Positions 11,057 through 40,036 of a stretch of 64,000 nt of DNA are shown here, one piece after another. The stretch is taken from contig NZ_CP081903.1 of the NCBI RefSeq assembly GCF_020091405.1, forward strand, positions 1,426,001 to 1,490,000, in the 5' to 3' direction. This DNA is from Bacteroides cellulosilyticus. GTDB lineage: Bacteria > Bacteroidota > Bacteroidia > Bacteroidales > Bacteroidaceae. Numbering within the stretch: the first letter of the stretch is position 1; the number at the start of each line of letters is the position of its first letter. The position numbers and the translations under genes are program-made. Below the pieces are notes generated by a model. That model saw only the letters and a list, made by a program, of their open reading frames with translations, was not told the origin of the DNA and ran no database searches.

Positions 11057-11512
11057 TCAGGTAATCTGCCGTTTCAAAGCATTTGCATATCCCTCGATAA
11101 TCAATTCCAGTCCATCCGTTAATTCTTGTGGTGAAATAACGATCTCCAATTTTCCTACCGTAGCATTTTCTGGTGTTTTTTTATTAGGGAAGCTGATCTG
11201 TAGCTCATCATTTATAACTTCTAGGGCAAATTCTGCCGTCACAGTAGCCTTTTCTATTTTAGAGGCTGTAACAGGTACCAATGTGATTAAAGGGACCTGA
11301 ACTGTTGTAGTAGTAACTGCTCCGGTATCATCCAAAGCAGGATATTCAAGTTGCACTATCTTCGGAACCAATGCCCCTTTATTTTTCCCCTCCCCGTCAA
11401 CAGGCTTTTCAAAATACTTATCCAGCAAGCCTTCATTCTTGTCCATCAGCGAGTCACTGGCACTTACAATGGCATGATGGATAGCCTCTACAAACAATTT
11501 AAAGCTAATCAT
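11057..11512 (-). CDS. DUF2589-like protein (short)
   Basis: A 151-residue protein. It opens with a helix (FVEAIHHAIVSASDSLM), followed by beta-strands including VPLITLVPVTASKIEKATV. This matches the '(L/V)PLLT(I/L)(L/V)P(I/L)NSLA(I/V)..(V/I)' strand of its two larger neighbours, the core of DUF2589 proteins. It lacks their 'VNVHAGQLPLPKGV' ending and closes with an amphipathic helix instead. The function of DUF2589 is not known to me. It is the last gene of the signalling cluster on this strand and probably forms a complex with the other two. Confidence 0.65.
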   Translation of the reverse strand: MISFKLFVEAIHHAIVSASDSLMDKNEGLLDKYFEKPVDGEGKNKGALVPKIVQLEYPALDDTGAVTTTTVQVPLITLVPVTASKIEKATVTAEFALEVINDELQISFPNKKTPENATVGKLEIVISPQELTDGLELIIEGYANALKRQIT

Positions 11513-11546
11513 ATCGATGAATTTTATGATTCGACACTATGCTATT

Positions 11547-11744
11547 TTACTTTTTCTGAGGTGCTATCTTTTTCAACTTTTCAAAGTTGTCGACTGCCTC
11601 ACTCACTACCGAGCGGCTTTCCGATGCTAACCCAATCGCCGCTTGACAGTTAGGGCATGAAAATTGTACGCCTTGGATTAACAAATGCAAATCAACGGGT
11701 ATTTGGGTCCTGCATACCGGACATGGGATATTTTGATCTATCAT
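11547..11744 (-). CDS. Small zinc-ribbon protein
   Basis: A 65-residue protein with CPVC at residues 8-11 and CPNC about 20 residues later, a four-cysteine zinc ribbon. A short charged helix (about 45-65) follows. It lies 4 bp after one DUF2589 gene and 34 bp before another, so it belongs to this operon. Zinc ribbons also open the AAA+ and FHA proteins and fill the 329-residue protein of this cluster. This suggests a shared docking or assembly role. Confidence 0.7.
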   Translation of the reverse strand: MIDQNIPCPVCRTQIPVDLHLLIQGVQFSCPNCQAAIGLASESRSVVSEAVDNFEKLKKIAPQKK

Positions 11745-11748
11745 ACTT

Positions 11749-12381
11749 CTATTCTTCTTTTTCCGACTGTTTATCTATTTTTTGTATGGGCTGTATCGAT
11801 TTCGTATACAAATCAAGTAAAGTCAATACTCCTTTAGGCAAAGGTAGTCTGCCCGCATGTATATTCACTTTAAGACGGCTTGACAAAGTACTATCATATT
11901 GTTCACGGAAGTTTTTCTTATATTCCTGTTTGGCTGGAGCAATTCTTCCATTCAGAACCGCCTTCTTCTCTACAAGTTGCACATCCGCATTCACTTTCGA
12001 TTTATAATCATAAGAACCCACCGATGTGATTTCCAGATCAAAATCCACATTGATCTTATCAATTGCAAGAGAATTTAAAGGCAGTAAACACAGTAAAGGA
12101 ACCTGGAAAGCCATTTTGTTGATAGAGATGTATCCCGGATCAGTCGGTTGTTTCGTATGATCAACAACCGGCTGAGTCAGCACCATCTCTATCATAAGAG
12201 GTTGTCGCAAGTCACTTCCCTCCTCTTTTGTGAAGCAATAATCAAGCAAGAATTGAGCCTGCCCGGTTAGCATCATAACATTGGCTTTCGAGGCCGCCAC
12301 CAAAGGTGCGCCAATGATGGATTCAATGTTAAGCTCTGCCCCAAATTGAGGTTTGAATGTAACTTGCTCGTTTTCAGACAT
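11749..12381 (-). CDS. DUF2589 protein
   Basis: A 210-residue soluble protein. The N-terminal segment IESIIGAPLVAASKANVMML is the typical DUF2589 opening. Then come PLMIEMVLTQPVV, VPLLCLLPLNSLAIDKI and a final VNIHAGRLPLPKGVLTLLD. It aligns along its length with the neighbour at 12465-13256 but lacks that protein's glycine-rich tail. No signal peptide, membrane helix or catalytic motif is seen. The pair probably arose by duplication. Confidence 0.75.
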   Translation of the reverse strand: MSENEQVTFKPQFGAELNIESIIGAPLVAASKANVMMLTGQAQFLLDYCFTKEEGSDLRQPLMIEMVLTQPVVDHTKQPTDPGYISINKMAFQVPLLCLLPLNSLAIDKINVDFDLEITSVGSYDYKSKVNADVQLVEKKAVLNGRIAPAKQEYKKNFREQYDSTLSSRLKVNIHAGRLPLPKGVLTLLDLYTKSIQPIQKIDKQSEKEE

Positions 12382-12464
12382 AATTGTTTATTTCGACTTA
12401 ATATTAAATTTCCCTGATAATTCTACATATTAAGTTTATCACCAATATTTACTTATTTTGGTTC

Positions 12465-13256
12465 TTAACCTCCAGTTCCTCCATTAGCTCCAGTTCCTCC
12501 ATTAGTTCCAGCCCCTCCATTAGCTCCAGCTCCTCCATTAGCTCCAGTTCCTCCATTAGTTCCAGCCCCTCCATTAGCTCCAGCTCCTCCATTAGCTCCT
12601 TCACCTTTTGCAGGGGTCAATTCTATAGGCTGAATTGCTTGTGCAAATGCTTCGATAATAGTGTTTACTCCTTTAGGAAGTGGCAATTGGCCTGCATGTA
12701 CATTAACCGTATACTTGGCAGAATTACTCTTCTCATAATGTGTATCATGGGTCGAAGAATCTTTTGAAGAATAACTGGCCGAACCTTTAATAGTTGTACT
12801 TAGCAGCCCCCAGCCTATTTTAGTTTCAAAACTACCTTCACCTGCACTCTCAGATGATTTTGCTTCATTATTGTCTTCAGAGAAACTTGATTTTACTTCC
12901 ATTTCAAAGTTTATATCCACGGTTTCGACAGCTAATGAATTGATTGGCAAGATTGTCAATAAAGGCAGACTAAATTTAGTACTGGCTTGAGGAATCCCTT
13001 TAGTAGTATCCATACCCGGAGTTATAACACTTCTGGTTAATACCATATCAATCATGATAGGCTCATACTGGGTCGGAATTTCGTTCCCATCTTTATCCTT
13101 CTTCTTCATGTTGAAACAAGTATCCAACATAAACCTTGTTTGCGTAAGAGCCATTGAAGAATTCGCCTTAGCGGCTGCATTCAAAGGACCTCCGATTAAG
13201 CTTTCCATTGGCAGCCCGGAGAATTGCTGCGACATCGATAATAAATTTGTATCCAT
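12465..13256 (-). CDS. DUF2589 protein with a Gly/Asn repeat tail
   Basis: A 263-residue protein. DUF2589 features: LPMESLIGGPLNAAAKAN near residue 15, EPIMIDMVLTRSVI, FSLPLLTILPINSLAVETV, and VNVHAGQLPLPKGVNTIIEA. Between them is a Ser-rich insert (about 135-185). The last 45 residues are seven hexapeptides of type G(A/T)NGG(A/T), a flexible low-complexity tail that may be elastic or adhesive. The tail is encoded by an 18-bp DNA repeat likely to vary in copy number. It lies in an operon with two further DUF2589 genes. Confidence 0.75.
   Translation of the reverse strand: MDTNLLSMSQQFSGLPMESLIGGPLNAAAKANSSMALTQTRFMLDTCFNMKKKDKDGNEIPTQYEPIMIDMVLTRSVITPGMDTTKGIPQASTKFSLPLLTILPINSLAVETVDINFEMEVKSSFSEDNNEAKSSESAGEGSFETKIGWGLLSTTIKGSASYSSKDSSTHDTHYEKSNSAKYTVNVHAGQLPLPKGVNTIIEAFAQAIQPIELTPAKGEGANGGAGANGGAGTNGGTGANGGAGANGGAGTNGGTGANGGTGG
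12468..12599. repeat. 18-bp in-frame tandem repeat (54-bp higher unit)
   Basis: About seven copies of an 18-bp unit with core CTCCATTAG encode the G(A/T)NGG(A/T) tail of the DUF2589 protein. Copies alternate in a two-plus-one pattern that repeats every 54 bp. Changes between copies are mostly Ala/Thr codon switches. Because units are multiples of three, slippage would change tail length without breaking the frame. Confidence 0.85.
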
Positions 13257-13288
13257 AATAATGCGTTTTGAAGAAGTTATTAAATATG

Positions 13289-13411
13289 TTAACTAAAACT
13301 CAGAAGTCTCTTAATCCATCTTTTTATGCACTCGAATAAACGAACAAAAAATCCTTTTTTCCTCTTAGGCTTTTCCGCCGGATAAAAACTAATAGTAATG
13401 CGTTCACCCAT
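13289..13411 (-). CDS. Possible 40-residue basic peptide, first gene of the DUF2589 unit
   Basis: An ATG at 13411 opens a 40-codon frame ending in TAA at 13289. The peptide begins MGERITISFYPAEKPKRKKG and ends in a basic amphipathic helix (FECIKRWIKRLLSF). It lies 32 bp upstream of the DUF2589 gene on the same strand. A TAACTTTG promoter element sits 34 bp before its start, and the purine-rich GAAAGAC precedes the ATG. The charge pattern looks selected rather than random. I do not recognise the family. It could be a membrane-active or regulatory peptide. Confidence 0.45.
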   Translation of the reverse strand: MGERITISFYPAEKPKRKKGFFVRLFECIKRWIKRLLSFS

Positions 13412-13444
13412 ATGTCTTTCACACTTACCCCAATTAGTAATGTG

Positions 13445-13452
13445 ACAAAGTT
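13445..13452 (-). promoter_or_regulatory. Probable -7 promoter element of the DUF2589 operon
   Basis: The minus strand reads TAACTTTG, matching TAnnTTTG. It places a start site about 25 nt before the 40-codon gene. It suggests the DUF2589 genes have their own promoter, separate from the kinase/AAA+ unit. No clear -33 element was seen. Confidence 0.5.
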
Positions 13453-13560
13453 AGTGACATAAAAGCAAAAAAAAGAACATAAGTGATAACAACTAATTTT
13501 CACAACTAGTTACTTATCAACCACTTACAAAGAGAAGTAATAACAATTTCAAAAAGCAGG

Positions 13561-14142
13561 CTAATTAGCAACCTTTAATTTTATCCGATGCCTCCTTTGA
13601 GCCACAATTTGCTTATTGACATTCCCAAAGCAGAGAGCAATGGTAAAATCATCTAATCCACAAATTGAGAGGCATGAAAATAGACAATCGTCTTCTGTAT
13701 ATTTAGGATAGGTTTGGTGCAGATACTCTATATAGTCCTTGTATATCTCTACAACAGTAGAACGCAGTTTCTTCTGTTCATCTTCCAATAAAATGCGTAA
13801 GTCCTGTTTATTTTTAGTTTTGTCTTGACGGCTAAGCCGTTCTATTGTTTTATAAATGGATGTCTCTTTAAAGATCACATTGCATAATTGTGCCTTTTCA
13901 TCGGCCAATTTTCTGATTTCACTTTCTTTCTGAGAAAGCAGTTTTTGAGTTTCTTCTTGCTTATCCCTCAATAAAGAAATATAATACTCAGTCTCTACCG
14001 CATGCACTTCCAATAAAGCCTGGTCATACTTGTGCTCCTGTTCGAGATACTTCTTCCGCTGCTTGGTCCGTTGAATATACCAGACCAGAAAAAGAATCAC
14101 GAGTAAACAGAAAACGATCAGATAGATAAATGGAAACTGCAT
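13561..14142 (-). CDS. Membrane-anchored coiled-coil protein with a LuxR-like C-terminal HTH
   Basis: A 193-residue protein. One transmembrane helix (about 5-25) is followed by a long charged coiled coil (about 30-130). A C-terminal domain reads YTEDDCLFSCLSICGLDD, then FGNVNKQIVAQRRHRIKLKV. This layout matches the C-terminal half of Bacteroidetes membrane-tethered regulators, where a helix-turn-helix with an 'R.R(I/L)..K' end follows a coiled coil. The usual N-terminal TPR sensor is missing. It may sense through partners in the cluster and control its genes. Its own weak -7 element (TATTTTTG) is at 14189-14196. Confidence 0.6.
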   Translation of the reverse strand: MQFPFIYLIVFCLLVILFLVWYIQRTKQRKKYLEQEHKYDQALLEVHAVETEYYISLLRDKQEETQKLLSQKESEIRKLADEKAQLCNVIFKETSIYKTIERLSRQDKTKNKQDLRILLEDEQKKLRSTVVEIYKDYIEYLHQTYPKYTEDDCLFSCLSICGLDDFTIALCFGNVNKQIVAQRRHRIKLKVAN

Positions 14143-14272
14143 CTTCGCTCTTACTTTAAAATATTCGATTATTTGACAACAAAGGAAACAAAAATAAAAA
14201 GAAATAGCAATATATTTTTTTTAAATATCTGACTCATCAACCTATATCGTGCATTTGATCGGCTATCTCTTC

Positions 14273-15022
14273 CTATTCTATCACCCGCAGAAGCACAACA
14301 CTCACATTATCCCTGCCACCTGCCGCCTTTGCAGCTTCTGTCAAACTGATTGCAGTAGGTTCTCGCTGAAGGACTTCCTCAATCTGATCATCTGTAAGCA
14401 TATCACTCAAACCATCGGAACAAATCAAAAAGAGGTCTTCATCCAATAATTGGCCGGTTAATTCGGTGAAATCGGCAAAAGCTGATGTTCCGGCACCCAA
14501 AGAATTATAGATTACATTGGATGGAGTAGTCATATCTCCGGTCAGTTCCCGCATGGAGTGGTCCGACGAAAGTTGTTTCAGAATACCGCCACGATAACGA
14601 TACAGGCGGCTGTCTCCAATATTCACCATATAGATGCTCTCTTCATAACTGAACATACCTACAAAAGTGGTTCCCATTCCCTCGTATTGAGGAAGTTCAA
14701 CGCCCTTATTTGTTATCAGAGCATGAGTTTCATTCACCCAATTCTTTATCTCACCGGACAGTACTTCATGAGAAAGTCCACAAGGAAGATCGGTAATAAA
14801 ACGGTCGAATGCCTGGGTAGCCAACTCACTGGCAAACTCTCCACCTTCGTGTCCGCCCATACCATCCGCTACAAAAGCCGTAAAACGAGCTTGAGGAATG
14901 AGTTCAAACTTTTGTTCGTATGTTTCGTCACGATAAAGTCCTCCGTTGAAGAGTATCATATCTTCATTATTGGTACGTATGCACCCCATATCACTGGCAA
15001 GCTGACATTTCAATAATAACAT
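14273..15022 (-). CDS. PP2C-type Ser/Thr protein phosphatase
   Basis: A 249-residue protein with the full set of PPM motifs: RTNNED (16-21), VADGMGGHEGG with Asp53, NIGDSRLYRYRGG, ICSDGLSDML and GGRDNVSVVLL. These bind two metal ions and hydrolyse phospho-Ser/Thr. It is soluble with no extra domain, the usual length of a stand-alone bacterial PP2C. It lies 62 bp after the FHA gene in the kinase unit and most likely reverses the kinase encoded at 19135-22602. Confidence 0.93.
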   Translation of the reverse strand: MLLLKCQLASDMGCIRTNNEDMILFNGGLYRDETYEQKFELIPQARFTAFVADGMGGHEGGEFASELATQAFDRFITDLPCGLSHEVLSGEIKNWVNETHALITNKGVELPQYEGMGTTFVGMFSYEESIYMVNIGDSRLYRYRGGILKQLSSDHSMRELTGDMTTPSNVIYNSLGAGTSAFADFTELTGQLLDEDLFLICSDGLSDMLTDDQIEEVLQREPTAISLTEAAKAAGGRDNVSVVLLRVIE

Positions 15023-15084
15023 AAGGCAATTTTGCGATTTAATGATTACAACCTATGATTAAGATTGGCTCTATTCCATCGATT

Positions 15085-15759
15085 CTATTCAACCTTGAAA
15101 TCAAGATTGGCTATGCGAATGACATCTCCGATGTTAAACATAACAGGTACATTCGGCGAAAGACGGTTACCGTTTACAAACGTGCCATTGGTAGAATCCA
15201 GATCCACTATTTCCCATTGTCCGGATACATTCTTCTGTAAGCGGGCATGGGTACCGGAAACATATCCCTGAGAAGCAAATGCAGATACATAATCGCCCTT
15301 TCTGCGACCAATCACCACGCCATTTCCCAAACCTAAACGAATGCCTGCGGCAGAACAAACCAAACGTACAGGAAGTGGAACTGCGGATACTCCCGGACGC
15401 ATTGTCTTTTCAGGCTCAGAAGAAACCGGACTCACAGGAGAAGCCGAGGAATTCACAGAAGAAGTGGAAGGACACACAGGCGACACGACTTGGTTTGCAG
15501 ATGAAGGCGCGAAATTAGCAGCTCCGCCAGAAGCAGGTTGCCCTGCAGGAATCGGAGCAACCGATCGGTCCTTGGAACTGCTATCGCCTGCTGTAGCTTT
15601 AGCGGATACTAACGGCTGACCGCATTGCGTGCATCGCTTCCCCTTTCCAAACACATGGCATTGAGGGCAAATATACAGTTCAACACCACATTGATCGCAA
15701 TAGTAACTATCACTTTCTATTTCAACTCTGCACTTGGGGCAGTTGACTAATGTACTCAT
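15085..15759 (-). CDS. Zinc-ribbon / FHA-domain protein with a KTMRPG motif
   Basis: A 224-residue protein. Two zinc ribbons lie at 8-48 (CPKC, CDQC, CPQC, CTQC). A Ser/Pro-rich linker (55-115) is followed by EKTMRPG with Thr119, then an FHA domain (about 132-224). The FHA domain has the phospho-Thr-binding residues Gly151-Arg152, Ser168/His171 (SGTHARL) and DSTNGTFVNG. FHA domains bind phosphothreonine. The KTMRPG motif just before the domain matches the repeated KTLRPG motif of the kinase in this cluster. It could be a kinase target that folds onto its own FHA domain, as described for GarA-type proteins. Confidence 0.9.
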   Translation of the reverse strand: MSTLVNCPKCRVEIESDSYYCDQCGVELYICPQCHVFGKGKRCTQCGQPLVSAKATAGDSSSKDRSVAPIPAGQPASGGAANFAPSSANQVVSPVCPSTSSVNSSASPVSPVSSEPEKTMRPGVSAVPLPVRLVCSAAGIRLGLGNGVVIGRRKGDYVSAFASQGYVSGTHARLQKNVSGQWEIVDLDSTNGTFVNGNRLSPNVPVMFNIGDVIRIANLDFKVE

Positions 15760-15789
15760 TTCTTTAGTGATTAACGATTAGTGATTCAA

Positions 15790-18700
15790 TTATCCCATAT
15801 CCTCAGGTAACAATATACTGTAGCTTGCCGGATCAAAGTCAGGACGCTCCATTTCGTGACGAAGACGGGAACTCTGGTTCTTTTTCACCCGATCGAAATA
15901 ATTATTTACTTCACGGGCATTGGCAAAATTACGTTCACGACGATTATATAAGTCCGTGAAGTAAACATGCATGGCATTTTCTGCCTCAGGAGTCAGTGTT
16001 AGCTTATCCTTTTTCACCTTCATCCTAAAAATTTGCGCCAATTCATCGGGATTATAGTCCTCAAAATGAATTACCTTGGTAAAGCGGGATTCCAAACCGG
16101 AATTCGTATCAATCCATTGGCGGATCTCACGCGGATACCCGGCAGCAATGCAAACCATCTTCCCCTTATAATCAAGCAACATCGGCAAAATGGTATTCGT
16201 AGCCTCCTGCCCGAAGTTATCGCCCATCAGTGAATAAGCTTCGTCAATAAAGAACACACCGCCCACCGCACGCTTCACAACCCGTGCCGTCTTAGTGGCA
16301 GTCTGTCCCACATAGCCTTCTACTAGGTCCTTACGGGTTACTTCCAACAAGCGATTGCTGGGCAATACGCCCAATGAATAGAAAATATTTCCCATGATAC
16401 GTGCCACAGTAGTCTTTCCCGTTCCCGGATTACCGACAAAGAGATAGTGATCCACTACACCCTGGAATTTCTTACCCATCGCTTCCGCCTTAGCACGCTC
16501 CACTTTGATATAATCGGCAATCTCCTTCACTTCACGTTTCACGCCGGATAATCCGATCAATTGGTTCAATTCTGCCATGCACTCTTCTTCATCGATCATC
16601 TTTGGCGGATCATACGGAATATCCTCCGCCTCGATGGTCAGGTACATTTCGCGAGTCAAGGTCTGTCCTCCGGCATGTAATTGTGCCAGCCGGTTGGCAC
16701 GGCGGGCTTTGGTTTTCTCAAAGAGTTTCACCATTTCCCCTGCATTTCCAAAGTTCTCATCTTTCGATGTCACCATTTCATCGACTAACTTAATCAGCAT
16801 CTCTTCTGCATCCGGTGTCAGTGTATTCCCTTTCTTCCTGATAAGAGAACGATAAATACAAATCAACTGGTCTGCCGAGTAGTCCTCGATATGCAGAAAA
16901 TTACTAAACCTGCGCCGGAAGCCCGGATTGGCATTATTGACAAATTCCTCCATTTCAGCGCGATAACCGGCACAGATAACCACGAATTTCCCGGCATCCT
17001 TCACCATTCGGGTCATTAGTGCCTCCACGGCTTCCACTCCAGTCTGATCCTTACTTCCACCCGCACTGATAGGCATCAGGGCATAGGCTTCATCTATAAA
17101 AAGAATACCGCCCATTGCTTCGTCACAAGCCTTATCCACAAGTTTGGCCGTCTCATTCTGATATGTACTTATCAGATGTTTACGCTCCTTTTCCACGACT
17201 TTATCGGTAGGCAGCAGACCGATGGCTTTAAAGACCTCTCCCAACTTACAGGCAATGGTGGTCTTACCTGTCCCCGGATTACCCGTCAGCACAATGTGTA
17301 CAGGAGTCACCTCAGCGTCAGCAATACCCATTTCCATCATTTCCTTGTCCATGGCTATCTTGTTCGCCAACGCACGTATCTCTGCTTTTACACTGTCCAT
17401 ACCGACGAATTCATTCAGTTCAGCAAGTACAGTGTCCAGACTCTTGATATTTTTGCTTTCTTCACCTTCAATATCCGCACGCGTCAGTACATGCACCATA
17501 GATACATCATAATCCGGTGTACCCTTCAGTTCCAGCAACCGGACTCCCTGATTCTTGATTGCACGATCCATTGTGTTACGTACCTCGCGGGCATTACCGA
17601 AATTGCGTGTACGGGTCAGATACATCTTCGAGAAGTAATTACGGATAAATGCCTCGGCCTCTTCATCCAGGGTCAGATGCTCTTTCTTCACCTGCCGACG
17701 AAAAATTTCCGCCAATTCATCGGCTTTATAGTCGCGGAAAGTCACCGTTTCATTGAAACGGGAGGCCATCCCCGAGTTGGAGCTCAGAAATTCTCCCATC
17801 TCCTTTGTATATCCGGCAGCAATAGCCACAAACTGCCCACGACGGTCTTCTACCAGTTTCAGCAACGTATCAATTGCTTCCTGGCCGAACTGGTCATTAT
17901 CACCTTGCTTCAATGTATAGGCTTCGTCAATGAACAGCACTCCGCCCATAGCCATATCCACATATTTTTCCACGGCCAAGGCCGTCTGACCCACATATCC
18001 CGCAACCAGCTCCTTTCGTGAAACTTCCACCAGCTGACCGATGGGCAACACTTCCAGCGAATTCAGAATATCAGCAAAGATACGGGCAATCGTTGTCTTC
18101 CCCGTTCCCGGATTACCAAGGAACAGAAAATGATCTTTGACCTCCCGTTTAGCTCCGGCACCTTTCCGTTCCCGTTCAAAATCTATCTTATGAATGATTT
18201 TCTGCACCGTTGCCTTGATTTCATCGATACCGACAAACTCATCCAGCTCTGCCATGATCTCCTCATAACTCTTCTGCCGGAACTCTTTACCGGGAATATC
18301 CTCAGGAATGGCAACCGATGCATTCGGATCGCGCTTGATAGTATTGGCAAAGATATCAGCCGCTTTTTTCACAGCCAAATGCCCATTCCCGAAATCATCT
18401 GATTTCTGTCGCATCTCATTCTTAAACACACGTTCCAATTTGGCATCCGCTTCCTCGCTCAATGCAATCCCATAACGTTTTTTAAGTTCATGGATACAAA
18501 GCTGCTTCAGTTCCTCCATACTGAAATCTTTCAGATCGAAGTAATACTCAAAGCGATTGCGCACATCAGGATTGGATACCAGAAACTCTTTAAAGGCCGA
18601 TGAAAGCCCGGAAAGAATGACTATCGGATCATTGTTCCACTTATCCATACAGCTGAACAGCTTATCAAGCTTATTGATATCATTGGCTGCACCCGAAGGC

Positions 18701-19131
18701 AAAAGCTTCTGCACATTTTCAATGCAGAGAATACCCCCTTTCAGGTCGGCGGTATTCTTTTCCCACTCTTTGGCAAACTCCTCATAATCCACCGCATCCA
18801 CTACTTTCATGGCAGGCTTCTTGATAATACCACTGGAGTACAATAGTTTTTGCAATACTCCTGCCAGTTTGGTTTTACCGGTTCCGGTATTTCCCGTAAT
18901 AATCATGTCCATGCCCAGGCGAATGGAAATGCCACTACGCTGTGCACGCAAAGCGAGCGACTCACAAGTATTTACCAAATCCTGCAACTGGTTCTTGACG
19001 GTTTCCATCCCTACCAACTCACGCAACGGTTCAGTAGCTTTAGTAACCACATTGGTGCCACACCATTTGCAGAAAACAGCGTTTTCACGGTTCGGCTTAT
19101 TACATTTCGGACAATTCATAGTCATCTTCAT
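15790..19131 (-). CDS. Four-module AAA+ ATPase (CbbX/SpoVK-like) with an N-terminal zinc ribbon
   Basis: A 1113-residue protein. A zinc ribbon (CPKC 7-10, CKWC 21-24) precedes four CbbX-type AAA+ modules. Walker A motifs are at 80-87, 339-346, 617-624 and 900-907. Walker B is FIDE in modules 2, 3 and 4 (400-403, 678-681, 961-964) but IEN in module 1 (137-139), so module 1 probably binds ATP without hydrolysing it. The GYVGQT pore-loop motif is kept in modules 2 and 4; module 3 has TYQNET. Such ATPases remodel or thread protein partners. The gene starts 3 bp after the kinase stop, so the two are tightly coupled. The substrate is unknown. Confidence 0.9.
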   Translation of the reverse strand: MKMTMNCPKCNKPNRENAVFCKWCGTNVVTKATEPLRELVGMETVKNQLQDLVNTCESLALRAQRSGISIRLGMDMIITGNTGTGKTKLAGVLQKLLYSSGIIKKPAMKVVDAVDYEEFAKEWEKNTADLKGGILCIENVQKLLPSGAANDINKLDKLFSCMDKWNNDPIVILSGLSSAFKEFLVSNPDVRNRFEYYFDLKDFSMEELKQLCIHELKKRYGIALSEEADAKLERVFKNEMRQKSDDFGNGHLAVKKAADIFANTIKRDPNASVAIPEDIPGKEFRQKSYEEIMAELDEFVGIDEIKATVQKIIHKIDFERERKGAGAKREVKDHFLFLGNPGTGKTTIARIFADILNSLEVLPIGQLVEVSRKELVAGYVGQTALAVEKYVDMAMGGVLFIDEAYTLKQGDNDQFGQEAIDTLLKLVEDRRGQFVAIAAGYTKEMGEFLSSNSGMASRFNETVTFRDYKADELAEIFRRQVKKEHLTLDEEAEAFIRNYFSKMYLTRTRNFGNAREVRNTMDRAIKNQGVRLLELKGTPDYDVSMVHVLTRADIEGEESKNIKSLDTVLAELNEFVGMDSVKAEIRALANKIAMDKEMMEMGIADAEVTPVHIVLTGNPGTGKTTIACKLGEVFKAIGLLPTDKVVEKERKHLISTYQNETAKLVDKACDEAMGGILFIDEAYALMPISAGGSKDQTGVEAVEALMTRMVKDAGKFVVICAGYRAEMEEFVNNANPGFRRRFSNFLHIEDYSADQLICIYRSLIRKKGNTLTPDAEEMLIKLVDEMVTSKDENFGNAGEMVKLFEKTKARRANRLAQLHAGGQTLTREMYLTIEAEDIPYDPPKMIDEEECMAELNQLIGLSGVKREVKEIADYIKVERAKAEAMGKKFQGVVDHYLFVGNPGTGKTTVARIMGNIFYSLGVLPSNRLLEVTRKDLVEGYVGQTATKTARVVKRAVGGVFFIDEAYSLMGDNFGQEATNTILPMLLDYKGKMVCIAAGYPREIRQWIDTNSGLESRFTKVIHFEDYNPDELAQIFRMKVKKDKLTLTPEAENAMHVYFTDLYNRRERNFANAREVNNYFDRVKKNQSSRLRHEMERPDFDPASYSILLPEDMG

Positions 19132-19134
19132 TTA

Positions 19135-22100
19135 TCAGTTCTCTACATCTGCTTTCGCTTTTTTGAAACTGAAGTTCACTTGTTTCTTGGTCGTATAATT
19201 CTCATAAGTACCTTCAAAAGCATCCATTCCATCGCCGGTGAACGTACCGTTATACTGCCCGTCGAGAGTACCGTTCTTGTATACATCGTCAAAATGGATA
19301 GTATTCGTAACGGCATTCACAGTGCCCGTCAGCGTCTCATCGGTCAGATTCGTATATTGCACATGTATAGTAGCCTTCAAACCTTCCGAGTCTGCTTTCG
19401 TTATGTTCAGCGTAGCATTACGCCCTTCGAACGTACCCTCCCATGTACCTACCAGCTCTTTAAGCTTCCTGTCGTTTTGCAGAAAACGGGAGGCATCCAG
19501 ACCGAATGCCGGAGTATATTGCACAAACAGGTAGGCCAGCCAGCCTACCATCACCATGGAAAGCACGGCACGATAAATGAACTTGCGGATGCACTCCTTC
19601 AGATAGGTGGCGTATTTCACCGATTCACCACCGATGGAAGATTCAAAATGCGTTCCCACATCCGCCTTGAAAGCGAAATGCAACGGCTCCAATCCCGTCT
19701 CCTCGAAACCTGGATTCAGCAGATGGCTGTGCAGGCTCCGCTCTACCGGAAGCTTGAAATAACAGCTTTTCATCAGATAATAAGCCAGCAGAACCAGAAG
19801 TCCGGCCAATACATAATGGGCATATGGCATGATGAGTTCGAGCACAAAATAGACCACATAATAGATTACCGACCCCACTATAGCACCTAAAAGAATACAA
19901 AATATAAGATTCTTGAAATCAGAAGCGACATACATAAGGATACTGAAAATTACAGTCATCGTCACAATGGCACCGACGGAGACAGTGGGCAACGGATTTT
20001 CTGTGAACGGAAGCCCGTAGAAGCATAATGCAGCTGCAAAAGCCAGAATAGGAATGAAACACAGTATTCCCAGCAATACACGCATCACTGTCAGTATCCT
20101 ACAACGCAAACGCACTTTCCGCAGGTTCTTATTCACAAAATTGGTGGCAATACGGAAATTGGAAACATCTGTATCTTTACTATCTATTTTTTCGATGAAT
20201 TCGAGATATTTCACCGTTTCCTGCTCATATGCGAATTTGGGAGAAAGATTCTTCAACGGATTCTCCTGAAAGAAAGTAGTAAGCCAGTCTCTCAAATATC
20301 CACTCTCCAGTTCTGCCTTAACTTCTTTCGATGGAATGGACTTCAATCCGTCCAAATCGGTTATACTCTTATCACTATCCTTGAAGTAATAATAAGGTAA
20401 AGCGCCCAATCCCTTGATCATCTTAAAGGTAGCTATAATCCAGTTGTAAGGGCCTGCTTTCCGGAGATTATCTTTGGATTTCAGTTCAAAGCAATAATTT
20501 ATCCATTCAATCTTATCCTCATACACACCCTTAGACTTCAGATAGAAATAGAGCCGCGAACCTTTCAGACTTGAAAGCATGCCGAGAATATAATCGGCAT
20601 ATTCATGATCCGGATCATTCTTCGGTGTATTCTTGTAAACCATCAACTGTTGATTGATGAATTGGGCTATTTGAGTATGCGTGAAATAATAATTATTTGC
20701 TGTCTCGTCCATTTGCAGGGTAAAGGAAACCTTAGGACTCAAATTATAAAGTACACCGTAAGTTACCGCAGCATCGGATGTAGTGAAACCTTTCAATTGA
20801 GTACGTATCTTCCCTACCAATCCTTTATCACGACCTGCCAACCATATCAGGAAAGACTCTTCCGCCAAATCATTCCACGAATCAGCGCTCAACATATGAT
20901 TATAAGCATAATGAAGAACTTCTTCCGGTGTATTGCAACGCCCCAAATTCCCCTTTTCATCGATCAATTCATAAGGACGTGAAGGATCAAGCTCATAGAT
21001 CAAACGCCATAAAGCCTCCCGCTGGCGACCTTTTTTATTAAACAAGGAAGCTGCATTATCCGTAAGCCGCTTCAGATCGTGCGCATTAAAAAAGAGAAAC
21101 AGGGGATCGTTCGCGTTCGCCAAGGTAGTCTGGTAAGTGCTGAAGTTCTCAATGAGAGATTGCGCTATTTCTTCGGCGGTAGTCCGCGGACGTCCCTTGA
21201 CATCATAATAGGGCATATCCACATTGAGCGTATAACAGGCGGCATACAGCCCGGCAGTCTGGTCCTTCGGATAGCGCTTTTCTACAATATCTTCGATTTC
21301 CGAAACCAATTCCGGCCGCTGATTATCATTCAGCCATTTCGTAAGCTTACCGGTATAGAGATATTTAATGGCAAGATTCTGATCCTGTCGCATAAAATCA
21401 GCCAATTGTTCGGGTGAATGTGCTATCTGATTCTTTCCGGCATTAAAAATAATACTGAAACGACGTTTACTTTCCTGCCCGACAAAATCACTGAATACAT
21501 CCTCTCCCCGAGCCCAACGAACGATTTCGGTAAATCCACAACGTTTTTCCGGCTGCGGTGCAGTCAATGCTTTTATTAATTGTAGCGTTCGTCCCGATAA
21601 ATCCACAGGAAAAGGCAAATCTCCCGTACGTTTGCGCTTCATCAGTTCAAATTCTCTTTCTTTAAACTCTTTCTCGCCCATCCACAGACAGAGCAAAACC
21701 ATACCAAGAGAGTAAAAATCACTCTTCGTGTCAATCTCCACCCGATTCTCACCGGGAACCGTATAATACATTTCGGGAGCTGCATAAATGCGGGTACGAG
21801 CCTGGTCCGTACGGGCAACTCCATTCTGATCGCATCTTACAGAAATACCAAAATCCCCCAGCAGCACCTGATTCTGATTCTCATCGGCAAAAAAGAAATT
21901 ACCCGGCTTGATATCCCGATGAATAAACCCATGCTTATGACAGAAATCAATGGCAGCAGCAGCTTGTTTAGCAATTTCACAAAGCCTTCTTTCGTCTCCT
22001 TTCAGGTTTATTTTATCCAAAGAGCCTCCTTTACAGTAAGTCATTACTTCATAATGCCTCAATTCACCGGAAACACGCGGATTATCCCACTGACCATGAT

Positions 22101-22602
22101 CTATGATATCCACTAATAATCCCGAGCGCGGAGTTTGTCTTATAATTTCAAGTATCTGATGATTAGGAGGCGGTTCAATACCAACATAATAGAGTTTTAG
22201 TACGTACTGCTTTCCCTTATTTTCCACCAGAAAGATCTGAGCTTCTCCCGTCCCATCCGATATTAACTTTATAACCCTGTAATTCAAACCTTTAATAAGA
22301 TATTCCGTATCATGCTGGCGAGTGATAGCCTCAATCGCCTTTTGCTGTTCGGCACGTAAGGTCGCATCATCTGACGAAACCGGACGCAACGTCTTATCCT
22401 CCATTCCACCGGGATGCAGAGTTTTGTCAATGTTAGCTACACCAGGGCGCAAGGTCTTCTTACTATCATCTTCCGGGCGAAGAGTTTTTTCTTCTTCACC
22501 AGGACGAAGGGTTTTCTCGGCTTTCAGGGCAGGGCGCAAAGTTTTATCACCGTCCGCACTACCGGGACGCAGTGTTTTATCACTGTCTCTAAAGTCGCTC
22601 AT
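19135..22602 (-). CDS. Membrane Hanks-type Ser/Thr kinase with N-terminal KTLRP repeats and a C-terminal beta domain
   Basis: I chose the ATG at 22602 (1155 residues); an upstream TTG at 22656 would add residues unlike the repeats. Residues 9-84 hold eight 'KTLRPG'-type repeats (Thr 10, 21, 31, 40, 50, 61, 71, 81). The kinase domain (about 105-370) has a probable ATP-binding Lys136, HRDIKPGN (228-235) and DFG (250-252). A long helical region, about five transmembrane helices (about 830-960) and another near 1030 follow. The last 105 residues start GTWEGTFEGR and look like a lipocalin-type beta barrel. The repeats are likely autophosphorylation sites read by the FHA protein. Confidence 0.92.
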   Translation of the reverse strand: MSDFRDSDKTLRPGSADGDKTLRPALKAEKTLRPGEEEKTLRPEDDSKKTLRPGVANIDKTLHPGGMEDKTLRPVSSDDATLRAEQQKAIEAITRQHDTEYLIKGLNYRVIKLISDGTGEAQIFLVENKGKQYVLKLYYVGIEPPPNHQILEIIRQTPRSGLLVDIIDHGQWDNPRVSGELRHYEVMTYCKGGSLDKINLKGDERRLCEIAKQAAAAIDFCHKHGFIHRDIKPGNFFFADENQNQVLLGDFGISVRCDQNGVARTDQARTRIYAAPEMYYTVPGENRVEIDTKSDFYSLGMVLLCLWMGEKEFKEREFELMKRKRTGDLPFPVDLSGRTLQLIKALTAPQPEKRCGFTEIVRWARGEDVFSDFVGQESKRRFSIIFNAGKNQIAHSPEQLADFMRQDQNLAIKYLYTGKLTKWLNDNQRPELVSEIEDIVEKRYPKDQTAGLYAACYTLNVDMPYYDVKGRPRTTAEEIAQSLIENFSTYQTTLANANDPLFLFFNAHDLKRLTDNAASLFNKKGRQREALWRLIYELDPSRPYELIDEKGNLGRCNTPEEVLHYAYNHMLSADSWNDLAEESFLIWLAGRDKGLVGKIRTQLKGFTTSDAAVTYGVLYNLSPKVSFTLQMDETANNYYFTHTQIAQFINQQLMVYKNTPKNDPDHEYADYILGMLSSLKGSRLYFYLKSKGVYEDKIEWINYCFELKSKDNLRKAGPYNWIIATFKMIKGLGALPYYYFKDSDKSITDLDGLKSIPSKEVKAELESGYLRDWLTTFFQENPLKNLSPKFAYEQETVKYLEFIEKIDSKDTDVSNFRIATNFVNKNLRKVRLRCRILTVMRVLLGILCFIPILAFAAALCFYGLPFTENPLPTVSVGAIVTMTVIFSILMYVASDFKNLIFCILLGAIVGSVIYYVVYFVLELIMPYAHYVLAGLLVLLAYYLMKSCYFKLPVERSLHSHLLNPGFEETGLEPLHFAFKADVGTHFESSIGGESVKYATYLKECIRKFIYRAVLSMVMVGWLAYLFVQYTPAFGLDASRFLQNDRKLKELVGTWEGTFEGRNATLNITKADSEGLKATIHVQYTNLTDETLTGTVNAVTNTIHFDDVYKNGTLDGQYNGTFTGDGMDAFEGTYENYTTKKQVNFSFKKAKADVEN

Positions 22603-22652
22603 AATTCTATATAGTTTTAAGATTAGCCAATCCGGCAAGGCCCCATGAAGGA

Positions 22653-23642
22653 TCAATCATCCTGATACTCAAAGGTTTTTGTAACAGTCACCACATCCTC
22701 ATATACCCAAGTCCCCCCCAGTTCCGGCTGGGCACACTCACTTGGGTGGCTATGGTGGCAACCGCAGAGGTTACATATCCAACAAACAGGCGCTGTTGTT
22801 ACGGATTTCCGCAAAACAGGCAATTTCCTTGCCGAATAGTAATTCCGCTGCATCTGTGGCGTCATATCTCCTTCCGGACGAAGTTTCTCCATCAGCAACT
22901 TCATTTCTTCCAGTTTCTCTTTATAAGATTGCTTCGCTTCGTCAAGATCTACCTTCTTCACATTCAGTTGTATCTTCGGACGGGTTTGAACAGGTTCCTC
23001 CACTTTCGGTTTAGGTCTGGAAACCTGCATTCCTTCAAGAGAACCGCTTCCTGAAAAGAGATCTTTATATTGTTGTATCAGTTTCTTATCGGCTTCACTC
23101 AATTCTACAGGAGGCAGTTCCGGTTCCCCCACCGGAAGTTCTTCAGAGACAGTATTCAGTATTTGTTCTTCCAAATCGGCAAGTTCCTGTGCCAATGCCA
23201 GCATTTCCTGAAAGACGGGGTCTTTCTTCGCCTTTTGCATTTCCTGCATTGCCATCTCATTCAGGGGACGATTACATTTTCGGCAAAAACTGCGGAAATT
23301 AAGGGTATTGCAGTCAGGACAGATAATCCCTGTGCGAGGATTACCACAATCAGGACAGAAGAAATCATCCGCTTCCATCGAGGCACCGCAGAATGAGCAC
23401 AATTCTGCATGAAGTCCTTGTCCGCAATGAGGGCATATTTCCCAATTAGGCTGAACAGGAGAGTTACAACGCATGCATGAAGTTCCTTTAAGCGCCATGC
23501 CACATTCTTCACAGAATTTATCGCCACTGTGACAAGGTGTCCCGCAATTAGGACAACATTGCGGCTGTTCCGCCTGTTTCTCCGAAGTCTTCTGCTGCGC
23601 CTTTATCTGTTGTTCCGATAAAGATTGATGTTGCTGTTCCAT
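22653..23642 (-). CDS. Multi-zinc-ribbon protein heading the kinase operon
   Basis: A 329-residue protein. Four zinc ribbons lie between about 29 and 135 (CPNC/CEEC, CMRC/CPHC, CSFC/CPDC, CPDC/CRKC). A charged helical region (about 135-265) and a Cys/His-rich end (CWICNLCGCHHSHPSEC) follow. It is the first gene of the minus-strand unit, 50 bp before the kinase ATG. No catalytic motif is seen. The ribbons probably act as a scaffold shared with the other zinc-ribbon members of the cluster. Confidence 0.8.
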   Translation of the reverse strand: MEQQHQSLSEQQIKAQQKTSEKQAEQPQCCPNCGTPCHSGDKFCEECGMALKGTSCMRCNSPVQPNWEICPHCGQGLHAELCSFCGASMEADDFFCPDCGNPRTGIICPDCNTLNFRSFCRKCNRPLNEMAMQEMQKAKKDPVFQEMLALAQELADLEEQILNTVSEELPVGEPELPPVELSEADKKLIQQYKDLFSGSGSLEGMQVSRPKPKVEEPVQTRPKIQLNVKKVDLDEAKQSYKEKLEEMKLLMEKLRPEGDMTPQMQRNYYSARKLPVLRKSVTTAPVCWICNLCGCHHSHPSECAQPELGGTWVYEDVVTVTKTFEYQDD

Positions 23643-39112: not shown

Positions 39113-40036
39113 ATGGAGAACAATAATATGAAATACCTTATAGCCGGCACAGGTGGTGTGGGAGGCAGTATCGCCGCCTTTCTTTCCCTTGCCGGAAAAG
39201 ATGTGACCTGCATTGCCCGCGGTGAGCATCTGGCTGCCCTGCACGAACACGGATTGTGTCTGCACTCCGACCTGAAAGGTGAACATACACTACCCATAAA
39301 AGCCTATACCGCCGAAGAATATACAGGCAAAGCCGACGTCATCTTTGTATGCGTCAAAGGCTATTCCGTAGACTCGATAACGGAGTTGATAAAACGCTCC
39401 GCCCACAAGGACACGGTTGTAATCCCTATTCTCAATGTCTACGGCACAGGTCCCCGCATCCAGCGCCTGGTGCCCGGAGTGACGGTTCTGGACGGCTGTA
39501 TCTACATCGTCGGCTTCGTGTCCGGCAAAGGGGAAATCACGCAAATGGGCAAGATATTCCGTCTGGTTTACGGTGCACACAAAGGCACGGTTGTTCCCCG
39601 TGGAACGTTGGAAACTATACAACAGGATTTGCAGGAAAGCGGCATCAAAGCCGAGATATCTCCCGACATCAACCGGGATACTTTCGTGAAGTGGTCTTTC
39701 ATCTCCGCTATGGCTGTCACCGGAGCCTATTACGATGTGCCTATGGGCGAAGTACAGAAGCCCGGAGAGGTGCGCGATACGTTTATCGGACTATCCCGTG
39801 AGAGTGCTGCACTGGGCGCTAAACTCGGTATTGACTTCAAGGAAGACATTGTAGAATATAATCTTAAAGTTATCGACAAACTGGATCCGGAAAGTACTGC
39901 TTCCATGCAGAAGGATATGGCTAAGGGACACGAAAGTGAGGTGCAAGGGTTGCTTTTTGATATGATTGCTGCCGCAGAAGAACAGGGGATTGATATTCCG
40001 ACGTACAGGATGGTGGCGGAGAAGTTCAAATCTTGA
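39113..40036 (+). CDS. Ketopantoate reductase-like protein (PanE/ApbA family)
   Basis: A 307-residue protein. The Rossmann motif LIAGTGGVGGSIAAFLS is near residue 8, and CIARGEHLAAL follows the second strand. The catalytic Lys is probably in TFVKWSFISAMA. The family reduces 2-dehydropantoate to pantoate with NADPH, but paralogues with other substrates are common, so I give no symbol. ATG 39113 and ATG 39128 are both possible starts. Confidence 0.85.
   Translation: MENNNMKYLIAGTGGVGGSIAAFLSLAGKDVTCIARGEHLAALHEHGLCLHSDLKGEHTLPIKAYTAEEYTGKADVIFVCVKGYSVDSITELIKRSAHKDTVVIPILNVYGTGPRIQRLVPGVTVLDGCIYIVGFVSGKGEITQMGKIFRLVYGAHKGTVVPRGTLETIQQDLQESGIKAEISPDINRDTFVKWSFISAMAVTGAYYDVPMGEVQKPGEVRDTFIGLSRESAALGAKLGIDFKEDIVEYNLKVIDKLDPESTASMQKDMAKGHESEVQGLLFDMIAAAEEQGIDIPTYRMVAEKFKS

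Follow-up and report, generated by a model that had tools for sequence, protein, structure and literature searches.

Five neighbouring genes of Bacteroides cellulosilyticus, encoding a multi-zinc-ribbon protein (DZR), a membrane Hanks kinase (KIN), a four-module AAA+ ATPase (AAA4), a zinc-ribbon/FHA protein (FHA) and a PP2C phosphatase (PP2C), are supported by sequence comparison as a conserved phospho-signalling unit of gut and other Bacteroidota. They occupy positions 14273-23642 of a window of 64,000 nucleotides (G000:C1:1426001-1490000, in a genome of 6.94 Mb held on one contig), and positions given below without a locus name are those of the window. The N-terminal tail of the kinase and the FHA protein carry the same short threonine motif, a shared tag which suggests how kinase and adaptor find each other. 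The matched tag common to the two proteins is the new element here: the original prediction, made from the letters of the window, had noted a KTLRPG kinase, and the recognition of the same motif in the FHA protein is an addition of this analysis.

The DZR-KIN-AAA4-FHA-PP2C unit

Every open reading frame (ORF) from DZR to the last of three DUF2589 genes (11057-23642) lies on the minus strand. The original prediction had listed these genes with their positions and domains, and a check of ORFs and Pfam matches bore out the entire list. Matches above the Pfam cut-off were obtained for Pkinase, AAA, FHA, PP2C_2, DZR (two proteins) and DUF2589 (three proteins), so that the kinase, reader and eraser which it had named are all present together with a tandem AAA+ protein.

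The unit opens with DZR (22653-23642), a protein of 329 residues matching Pfam DZR at 57 bits. The kinase gene follows (19135-22656; Pkinase 99 bits), and then AAA4 (15790-19131), in which a zinc ribbon precedes four CbbX/SpoVK-like AAA+ modules (Pfam AAA 178 bits; AAA and AAA_lid_6 matched in four stretches each). FHA (15085-15759) is made up of a double zinc ribbon (DZR 31 bits), a disordered linker containing EKTMRPG and an FHA domain (57 bits). The closing gene is PP2C (14273-15022), with a PP2C_2 match of 51 bits and an Stp1/IreP-like match of 156 bits that falls below the cut-off of 230.

The five genes are assigned to one unit because their order is conserved and their divergence is correlated. 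The order is intact in 20 of 27 loci, which include distant Bacteroidota and several near-copies; L020 and G079 are one locus, counted as intact after its FHA gene was read by hand. L019 and L022 are without PP2C, neither DZR nor PP2C is seen at L134, and contig ends cut the unit in L124, L129, L130 and L135. Wherever DZR was found (25 loci), it leads the unit. Pairwise distances of the five proteins correlate across 17-20 loci, with r values of 0.79-0.96. The claim of the original prediction that the genes on this strand act as one system is supported for DZR, the kinase, AAA4, FHA and PP2C, and unsupported for the three DUF2589 proteins, a small zinc ribbon, a LuxR-like protein and a 40-residue ORF. 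In Bacteroides, and likewise in two Prevotellaceae metagenome-assembled genomes, the unit adjoins mnmG (L018, L019, L020).

The host belongs to the clade of Bacteroides timonensis and B. cellulosilyticus DSM 14838, whose AAA4 proteins share 99% identity with that of the window. A scan of 119 genomes of the genus returned 12 with an AAA4 match of at least 44% identity over at least 847 of its 1,113 residues; DZR, kinase and FHA genes adjoin AAA4 in all 12 of these, and PP2C in 11. Weaker or partial matches were found in 25 further genomes, and other unit proteins were not seen in the eight neighbourhoods fetched for such matches, some of them on short contigs. The genus is also rich in tandem CbbX-like proteins of about 900 residues which are 26-38% identical to AAA4 (G123, G002, G115, G015 and others).

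At the level of the phylum, a kinase profile of 11 rows, built on the region beyond the catalytic domain, matched 15 of 395 genomes. In seven of these the match takes in sequence that follows the kinase domain, and the unit is present in the DNA fetched around it, split over two contigs in G200; G250, whose kinase pieces are short, belongs to the seven on the strength of the unit in its DNA. The remaining eight have the C-terminal domain alone, in frames of 153-188 residues. The same profile matched 6 of 393 genomes of the order and, under a stricter limit, 3 of 79 in family f33 and 6 of 80 in family f51. A zinc-ribbon/FHA profile matched 21 of the 395 phylum genomes, with E-values below 1e-60 in seven, namely those already picked by the kinase profile; the next best match, at 7.9e-14, is to the FHA part only.

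A threonine tag common to kinase and adaptor

The kinase tail is composed of repeats of (D/E)KT[ILV]R(P), such as DKTLRPG, DKTLRPA and EKTLRPG, and a motif scan of the window finds six copies of T[LMIV]RP and one DATLRA within it (minus strand, 22380-22590, limits approximate). The FHA protein has a single copy, EKTMRPG, in its linker (EKTMRP at 15395-15411, minus strand; G000:C1:1441395-1441411). Window ORFs of at least 100 residues hold seven T[LMIV]RP in total, all of them in the kinase or the FHA protein. Throughout the genome, the DNA pattern [DE]KT[hydrophobic]RP has 14 matches as against 4 in a reversed control. The kinase and FHA genes account for six; of the other eight, one is in frame in an ORF of 722 residues and one lies in a shadow ORF (39349-39801) overlapping a gene of 307 residues. 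This strict pattern, which looser forms of the tag escape, revealed no convincing further tagged protein in the genome, and the strict tag appears nearly private to the kinase and the FHA protein.

Among relatives, the tag was counted in 20 loci with both proteins, a set that excludes loci whose contig lacks FHA, near-identical loci (L017, L021, L054) and duplicate G copies (L052, L053, L055-L058). The kinase tails, 1,704 residues in all, hold 77 T[ILVM]R, as against 45 in the 62,394 residues that other ORFs at these loci comprise. The motif is found in disordered parts of 15 of the 20 FHA proteins, compared with a mean of 0.59 and a maximum of 5 in 5,000 shuffling trials. Furthermore, when 22 loci are considered, the FHA tag is present in 16 of 17 with at least two tail motifs and in none of five with fewer (Fisher 2.3e-4).

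The placement of the tag differs between lineages. In Bacteroidales FHA proteins it lies in the linker, and in those of f33 and f51 it forms the C-terminus in six of seven loci (EKTIRV, DATVRV, DKTVRI, EKTVRI, EKTVRL and DRTVRL), a split which falls across one fully supported branch of the kinase tree. The motif was defined on these same data, and G200 and G807 were then read as cases outside the definition. G200 fits, with an FHA protein on another contig that ends SDDDKTIRL and a kinase tail that begins MADDNDKTIRLDSEDDDKTIRINS. Two loci have other repeats that look matched, both noticed after the fact: HATGK in the kinase and HSTGK in the FHA protein of L062, and TLKP and TAKP, respectively, in L127. 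No pairing of this kind is convincing at L061 and L121. A pairwise score is 33.1 for own partners versus 27.3 for swapped ones (permutation 5e-5), a difference for which shared ancestry alone could suffice.

Features of the kinase, the FHA protein and AAA4

Alignment with its relatives shows the catalytic motifs of a Hanks Ser/Thr kinase, the beta-3 lysine, HRD, DFG and APE, to be conserved. Most relatives in the alignment begin at the ATG near 22602, which makes this the probable start in preference to the TTG at 22656. A crude hydropathy scan gives five hydrophobic segments between residues 850 and 1045, ahead of the last 125 or so residues, and five, four and three such segments in the relatives at L127, L123 and L060, respectively. 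Stand-alone relatives of the C-terminal domain have lipoprotein-like starts, as judged by eye, in 7 of the 10 loci read, the other three being without a suitable ORF. The hydrophobic segments and these lipoprotein-like relatives would place the C-terminal domain outside the cytoplasm. No credible relative of solved structure was found for this region. The lone C-terminal-domain proteins, which are small and lipoprotein-like, occur in genomes without the unit (L099, L100, L101, L103, L105, L106, L113) and, in G350, beside it.

Four residues of the FHA domain, R, S, H and N, which we take to be those that bind phosphothreonine, are invariant in all 17 aligned rows, and the best solved match to the alignment is ArnA (5a8i, E-value 8.4e-13). 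AAA4 of the window has four Walker A motifs; the Walker B motif reads IDE in modules 2-4 and is degenerate (IEN) in module 1. A zinc ribbon opens the protein in all 25 loci printed and inspected by eye.

An origin in phages or plasmids was considered and rejected. Kinase relatives gave no match in plasmids, none of 67 pattern matches in viral contigs was confirmed as a kinase relative, and DUF2589 gave no match in phage records.

A putative docking mechanism and its alternatives

The explanation that we hold with moderate confidence, drawn from sequence and from analogy, is that the kinase phosphorylates the threonines of the tag, that the FHA protein docks on them and that the AAA+ protein is the output. 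The membrane kinase would sense a cue in the envelope or outside through its predicted extracytoplasmic C-terminal domain. On the cytoplasmic side it would phosphorylate its own N-terminal tail, at the threonine of the repeated (D/E)KT[ILV]R(P) motif. The FHA domain would then dock on the phosphorylated tail in the fashion of GarA on PknG. The single tag of the FHA protein may also be phosphorylated, after which the protein could fold back onto its own FHA domain or join a second copy of itself, and PP2C would remove the phospho-marks. Finally, the adaptor may control the CbbX-type AAA+ machine through the zinc ribbons common to FHA, AAA4 and DZR, allowing AAA4 to remodel a putative client. 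When the logic of PknG and ArnA is combined with the shared tag, the set of zinc ribbons and an AAA+ output, every part of the unit would have a role.

It is attractive, if more tentative, to extend this mechanism to the Bacteroidota as a whole. The private tag, co-changing in both partners and mobile between linker and C-terminus, might be an address which links sensor, adaptor and tandem CbbX-type remodeller, with L062 and L127 as lineage-specific re-codings.

Several observations weigh against the docking mechanism. L061, L121 and G807 have no motif in either protein, and the tag is therefore not essential everywhere, whilst L134, the seventh of the f33/f51 loci, has tail motifs but an FHA protein without the tag. 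In single-locus shuffling tests, similarity reaches p <0.05 in just 11 of 20 loci, tagless L134 among them, and L059, L128, L122 and L121 are far from that value. The permutation and Fisher values given above are optimistic, since the rows are related. As to the unit itself, PP2C is absent beside L019, L022 and L134, and G036 and G957 carry the kinase, yet no FHA match was obtained in their draft genomes. The strength of the seven best zinc-ribbon/FHA matches is partly a matter of construction, six of those genomes having had rows in the profile and G200 none; the absence of a match below 1e-60 in the other 388 phylum genomes does not arise in this way.

Lineages without the motif keep both the kinase and the FHA genes, as would be expected if the repeats were unphosphorylated docking or spacer sequence, common to the two proteins by descent or through a third partner, and if the real target of the FHA domain were another protein. 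We regard this as unlikely. The threonine is the constant residue of the repeat and has as its neighbours a kinase that looks active and a phosphothreonine-binding domain that is intact; moreover, the tag moves within the FHA protein yet persists, and its strict form has the nearly private distribution described above.

The patchy spread of the unit (7 of 395 phylum genomes) raises the further alternative, which we consider improbable, that it serves in defence or conflict, with SUKH, DUF1963 or DUF2589 genes nearby as its variable partners. SUKH-like or DUF1963 genes lie in or beside the unit at 7 of 19 loci, four of them passing the Pfam cut-off and three being called from a sub-threshold match or from clustering, and PADLOC gave domain-level matches for the kinase (mad6, 113 bits) and for AAA4 (IetA, 82 bits). 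PADLOC matches are lacking, however, for FHA, PP2C, DZR, the LuxR-like protein and the three DUF2589 proteins; several of the scanned neighbours are household genes and no effector common to the loci was found. In addition, the position beside mnmG in Bacteroides and the two Prevotellaceae genomes suggests long residence. A known anti-phage system was rejected on PADLOC-DB 2.0.0, in which the matches are at domain level, to KIN and AAA4 only, with no system-specific models for several unit proteins. The SUKH (SMI1/KNR4)-like or DUF1963 genes, which are possible accessory partners, are sited at 7289 in L122, 10445 in L126, 5593 in L060, 738 in L059 and 4665 in L124, and at 9026 in L062 and 16931 in L127.

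That all eleven genes form one system, with the DUF2589 proteins as effectors of the kinase/AAA+ unit, agrees with their single strand and short gaps in the window and with the identical arrangement in the near relatives B. timonensis, B. cellulosilyticus DSM 14838 and G073, but is very improbable in view of a DUF2589 gene in 4 of 26 kinase genomes, a chance-level overlap in 395 genomes, a cassette standing alone in L085 and L090, a unit without DUF2589 in B. stercorirosoris and window DUF2589 proteins in which the T[ILVM]R tag was not found.

The DUF2589 cassette and other neighbours

The DUF2589 genes look like an independent cassette, apart from the kinase unit. In the window they are a (12465-13256, 109 bits), b (11749-12381, 85 bits) and c (11057-11512, 46 bits), against a cut-off of 23 bits, with a small zinc ribbon between b and c (11547-11744). 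The latter has no Pfam match over the cut-off and passes NCBIfam MJ0042_CXXC (23.3 versus 20.9 bits); it holds the same place in the two distant genomes (L085, L090) where the order a, b, zinc ribbon, c is found apart from the unit. The four kinase-carrying genomes with DUF2589 are all close relatives. Co-occurrence across Bacteroidota had been put forward as a check on the original prediction: it is seen for the kinase and the zinc-ribbon/FHA protein, but of the 395 phylum genomes 28 have DUF2589 and 7 the unit, and they overlap in one, the genome of the window itself, where about 0.5 would be expected by chance. Membership of DUF2589 in the unit was rejected on these grounds and on those of the stand-alone cassettes.

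Genes for hydrolases or wall-binding proteins, chosen by eye and over the Pfam cut-off, are near DUF2589 in 7 of 20 fetched regions, a pattern that would suit a role of DUF2589 as partner to interchangeable effector enzymes. The genes concerned (L074, L076, L077, L080, L083, L085, L088) are M15, trypsin-like, endonuclease/exonuclease, patatin, CHAP, GH25 and subtilase genes. Two more conserved-looking proteins, of about 225-285 and 180-200 residues, follow DUF2589 in L074, L078, L080, L082, L083, L084, L086 and L088; both of those in L080 and the larger one in L078 have no Pfam match. A gene of 152 residues, M15-peptidase-like by eye, lies between DUF2589 c and GH2 in B. timonensis (L017 17935-18393) and G073 (L054 near 3265). 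It has no Pfam match, and tblastn found no trace of it in the window. Searches with DUF2589 gave two plasmid matches, of 24-27% identity, and no credible relative of solved structure. No description bearing on DUF2589 was found in the literature searched, which lay mostly outside subscription journals.

Two features separate the cassette from PP2C, both on the minus strand. The membrane LuxR-like gene (13561-14142), a neighbour outside the unit, encodes 193 residues in the window as against 550 in the whole gene of B. stercorirosoris, and covers just positions 360-545 of the 563 in NCBIfam BT3442_fam (48 bits, cut-off 940); it is probably a 5'-truncated, C-terminal remnant. B. timonensis and B. 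cellulosilyticus each retain the candidate 40-residue peptide ORF (13289-13411) with a single residue changed, a similarity too high for a test of coding, and nothing like it was seen ahead of DUF2589 at three other loci. A scan with a Bacteroides promoter motif gave no useful result.

Comparison with known systems

The original prediction knew of no described system with this make-up, and none was found among the matches listed from the same literature, which does not prove absence. Going by titles and the beginnings of abstracts, there seems to be little published on phospho-signalling by Hanks kinases and FHA domains in Bacteroidota. With the shared tag, what was a list of domains becomes a docking model which names its residues and can be tested directly, and the matched kinase/FHA pairs are a natural series for studying the evolution of a phospho-address. 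Furthermore, a tandem CbbX-type AAA+ protein becomes tied to kinase control, and the DUF2589 family is set apart as a cassette of its own, often beside hydrolase genes.

The original prediction had compared kinase, FHA protein and phosphatase with type VI secretion regulators and had seen no secretion genes nearby, and an exclusion of that pathway holds in part: VipB/TssC (PF05943) matched none of 26 unit genomes with a positive E. coli control, but a divergent TssC could escape. Bacteroidota TssC is perhaps too divergent for the PF05943 model. The FHA protein is not TagH, scoring 26.5 bits against a cut-off of 120.25. What the PpkA/PppA/Fha pathway of type VI secretion has in common with the unit is a kinase, a phosphatase and an FHA protein, which in that pathway binds a phosphothreonine of a partner (PMC3953482).

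AAA4 resembles the CbbX/SpoVK/EccA family in its AAA and AAA_lid_6 modules, and differs in the zinc ribbon at its start and in having four modules in one chain. It exceeds the NCBIfam cut-offs of the CbbX, SpoVK and EccA models, although its scores sum over four modules and a single-module cut-off says little. No secretion or Rubisco context was seen around AAA4.

The PFNA operon of bifidobacteria also combines a Ser/Thr kinase with an AAA+ ATPase, which the kinase phosphorylates, and in some species with PP2C (prpC) and FHA (PMC8430577). Its AAA+ protein is a MoxR, accompanied by FN3, DUF58 and transglutaminase (PMC8430577), in contrast to the tandem CbbX-like AAA+ protein and zinc ribbons found here. 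MoxR, FN3, DUF58 and transglutaminase are absent from the Pfam matches of the unit proteins (for AAA4, among the best 25 of 68). Another near parts list is the actinobacterial theme of kinase, PP2C and vWA proteins (PMC7159879).

ArnA of Sulfolobus parallels the adaptor in joining a zinc finger, a disordered linker and an FHA domain (PMC6509490, PMC12852372), and illustrates that a protein combining a zinc finger with an FHA domain is able to keep its partner in either of two states (PMC12852372). That partner, ArnB, is a vWA protein, and neither an AAA+ protein nor a shared tag is described in the excerpts of these papers (PMC6509490, PMC12852372).

A close parallel to the proposed docking is offered by PknG and GarA/OdhI of Actinobacteria, where a kinase with a disordered N-terminal tail recruits an FHA protein through autophosphorylated threonines of that tail, and where the FHA protein has a phosphorylatable motif of its own, ETTS (PMC8546545). 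The FHA protein of the unit likewise has intact phosphothreonine-binding residues, in all 17 rows of the alignment. The kinase is not a PknG: no TPR or rubredoxin appears among its Pfam matches up to an E-value of 1, and no PknG among 13 NCBIfam matches. PknG has TPR and mostly rubredoxin parts, and its tail is poorly conserved in sequence (PMC8546545); here, by contrast, a membrane kinase stands in one operon with DZR, AAA4 and PP2C, and a repeated tag is common to its tail and to the FHA protein.

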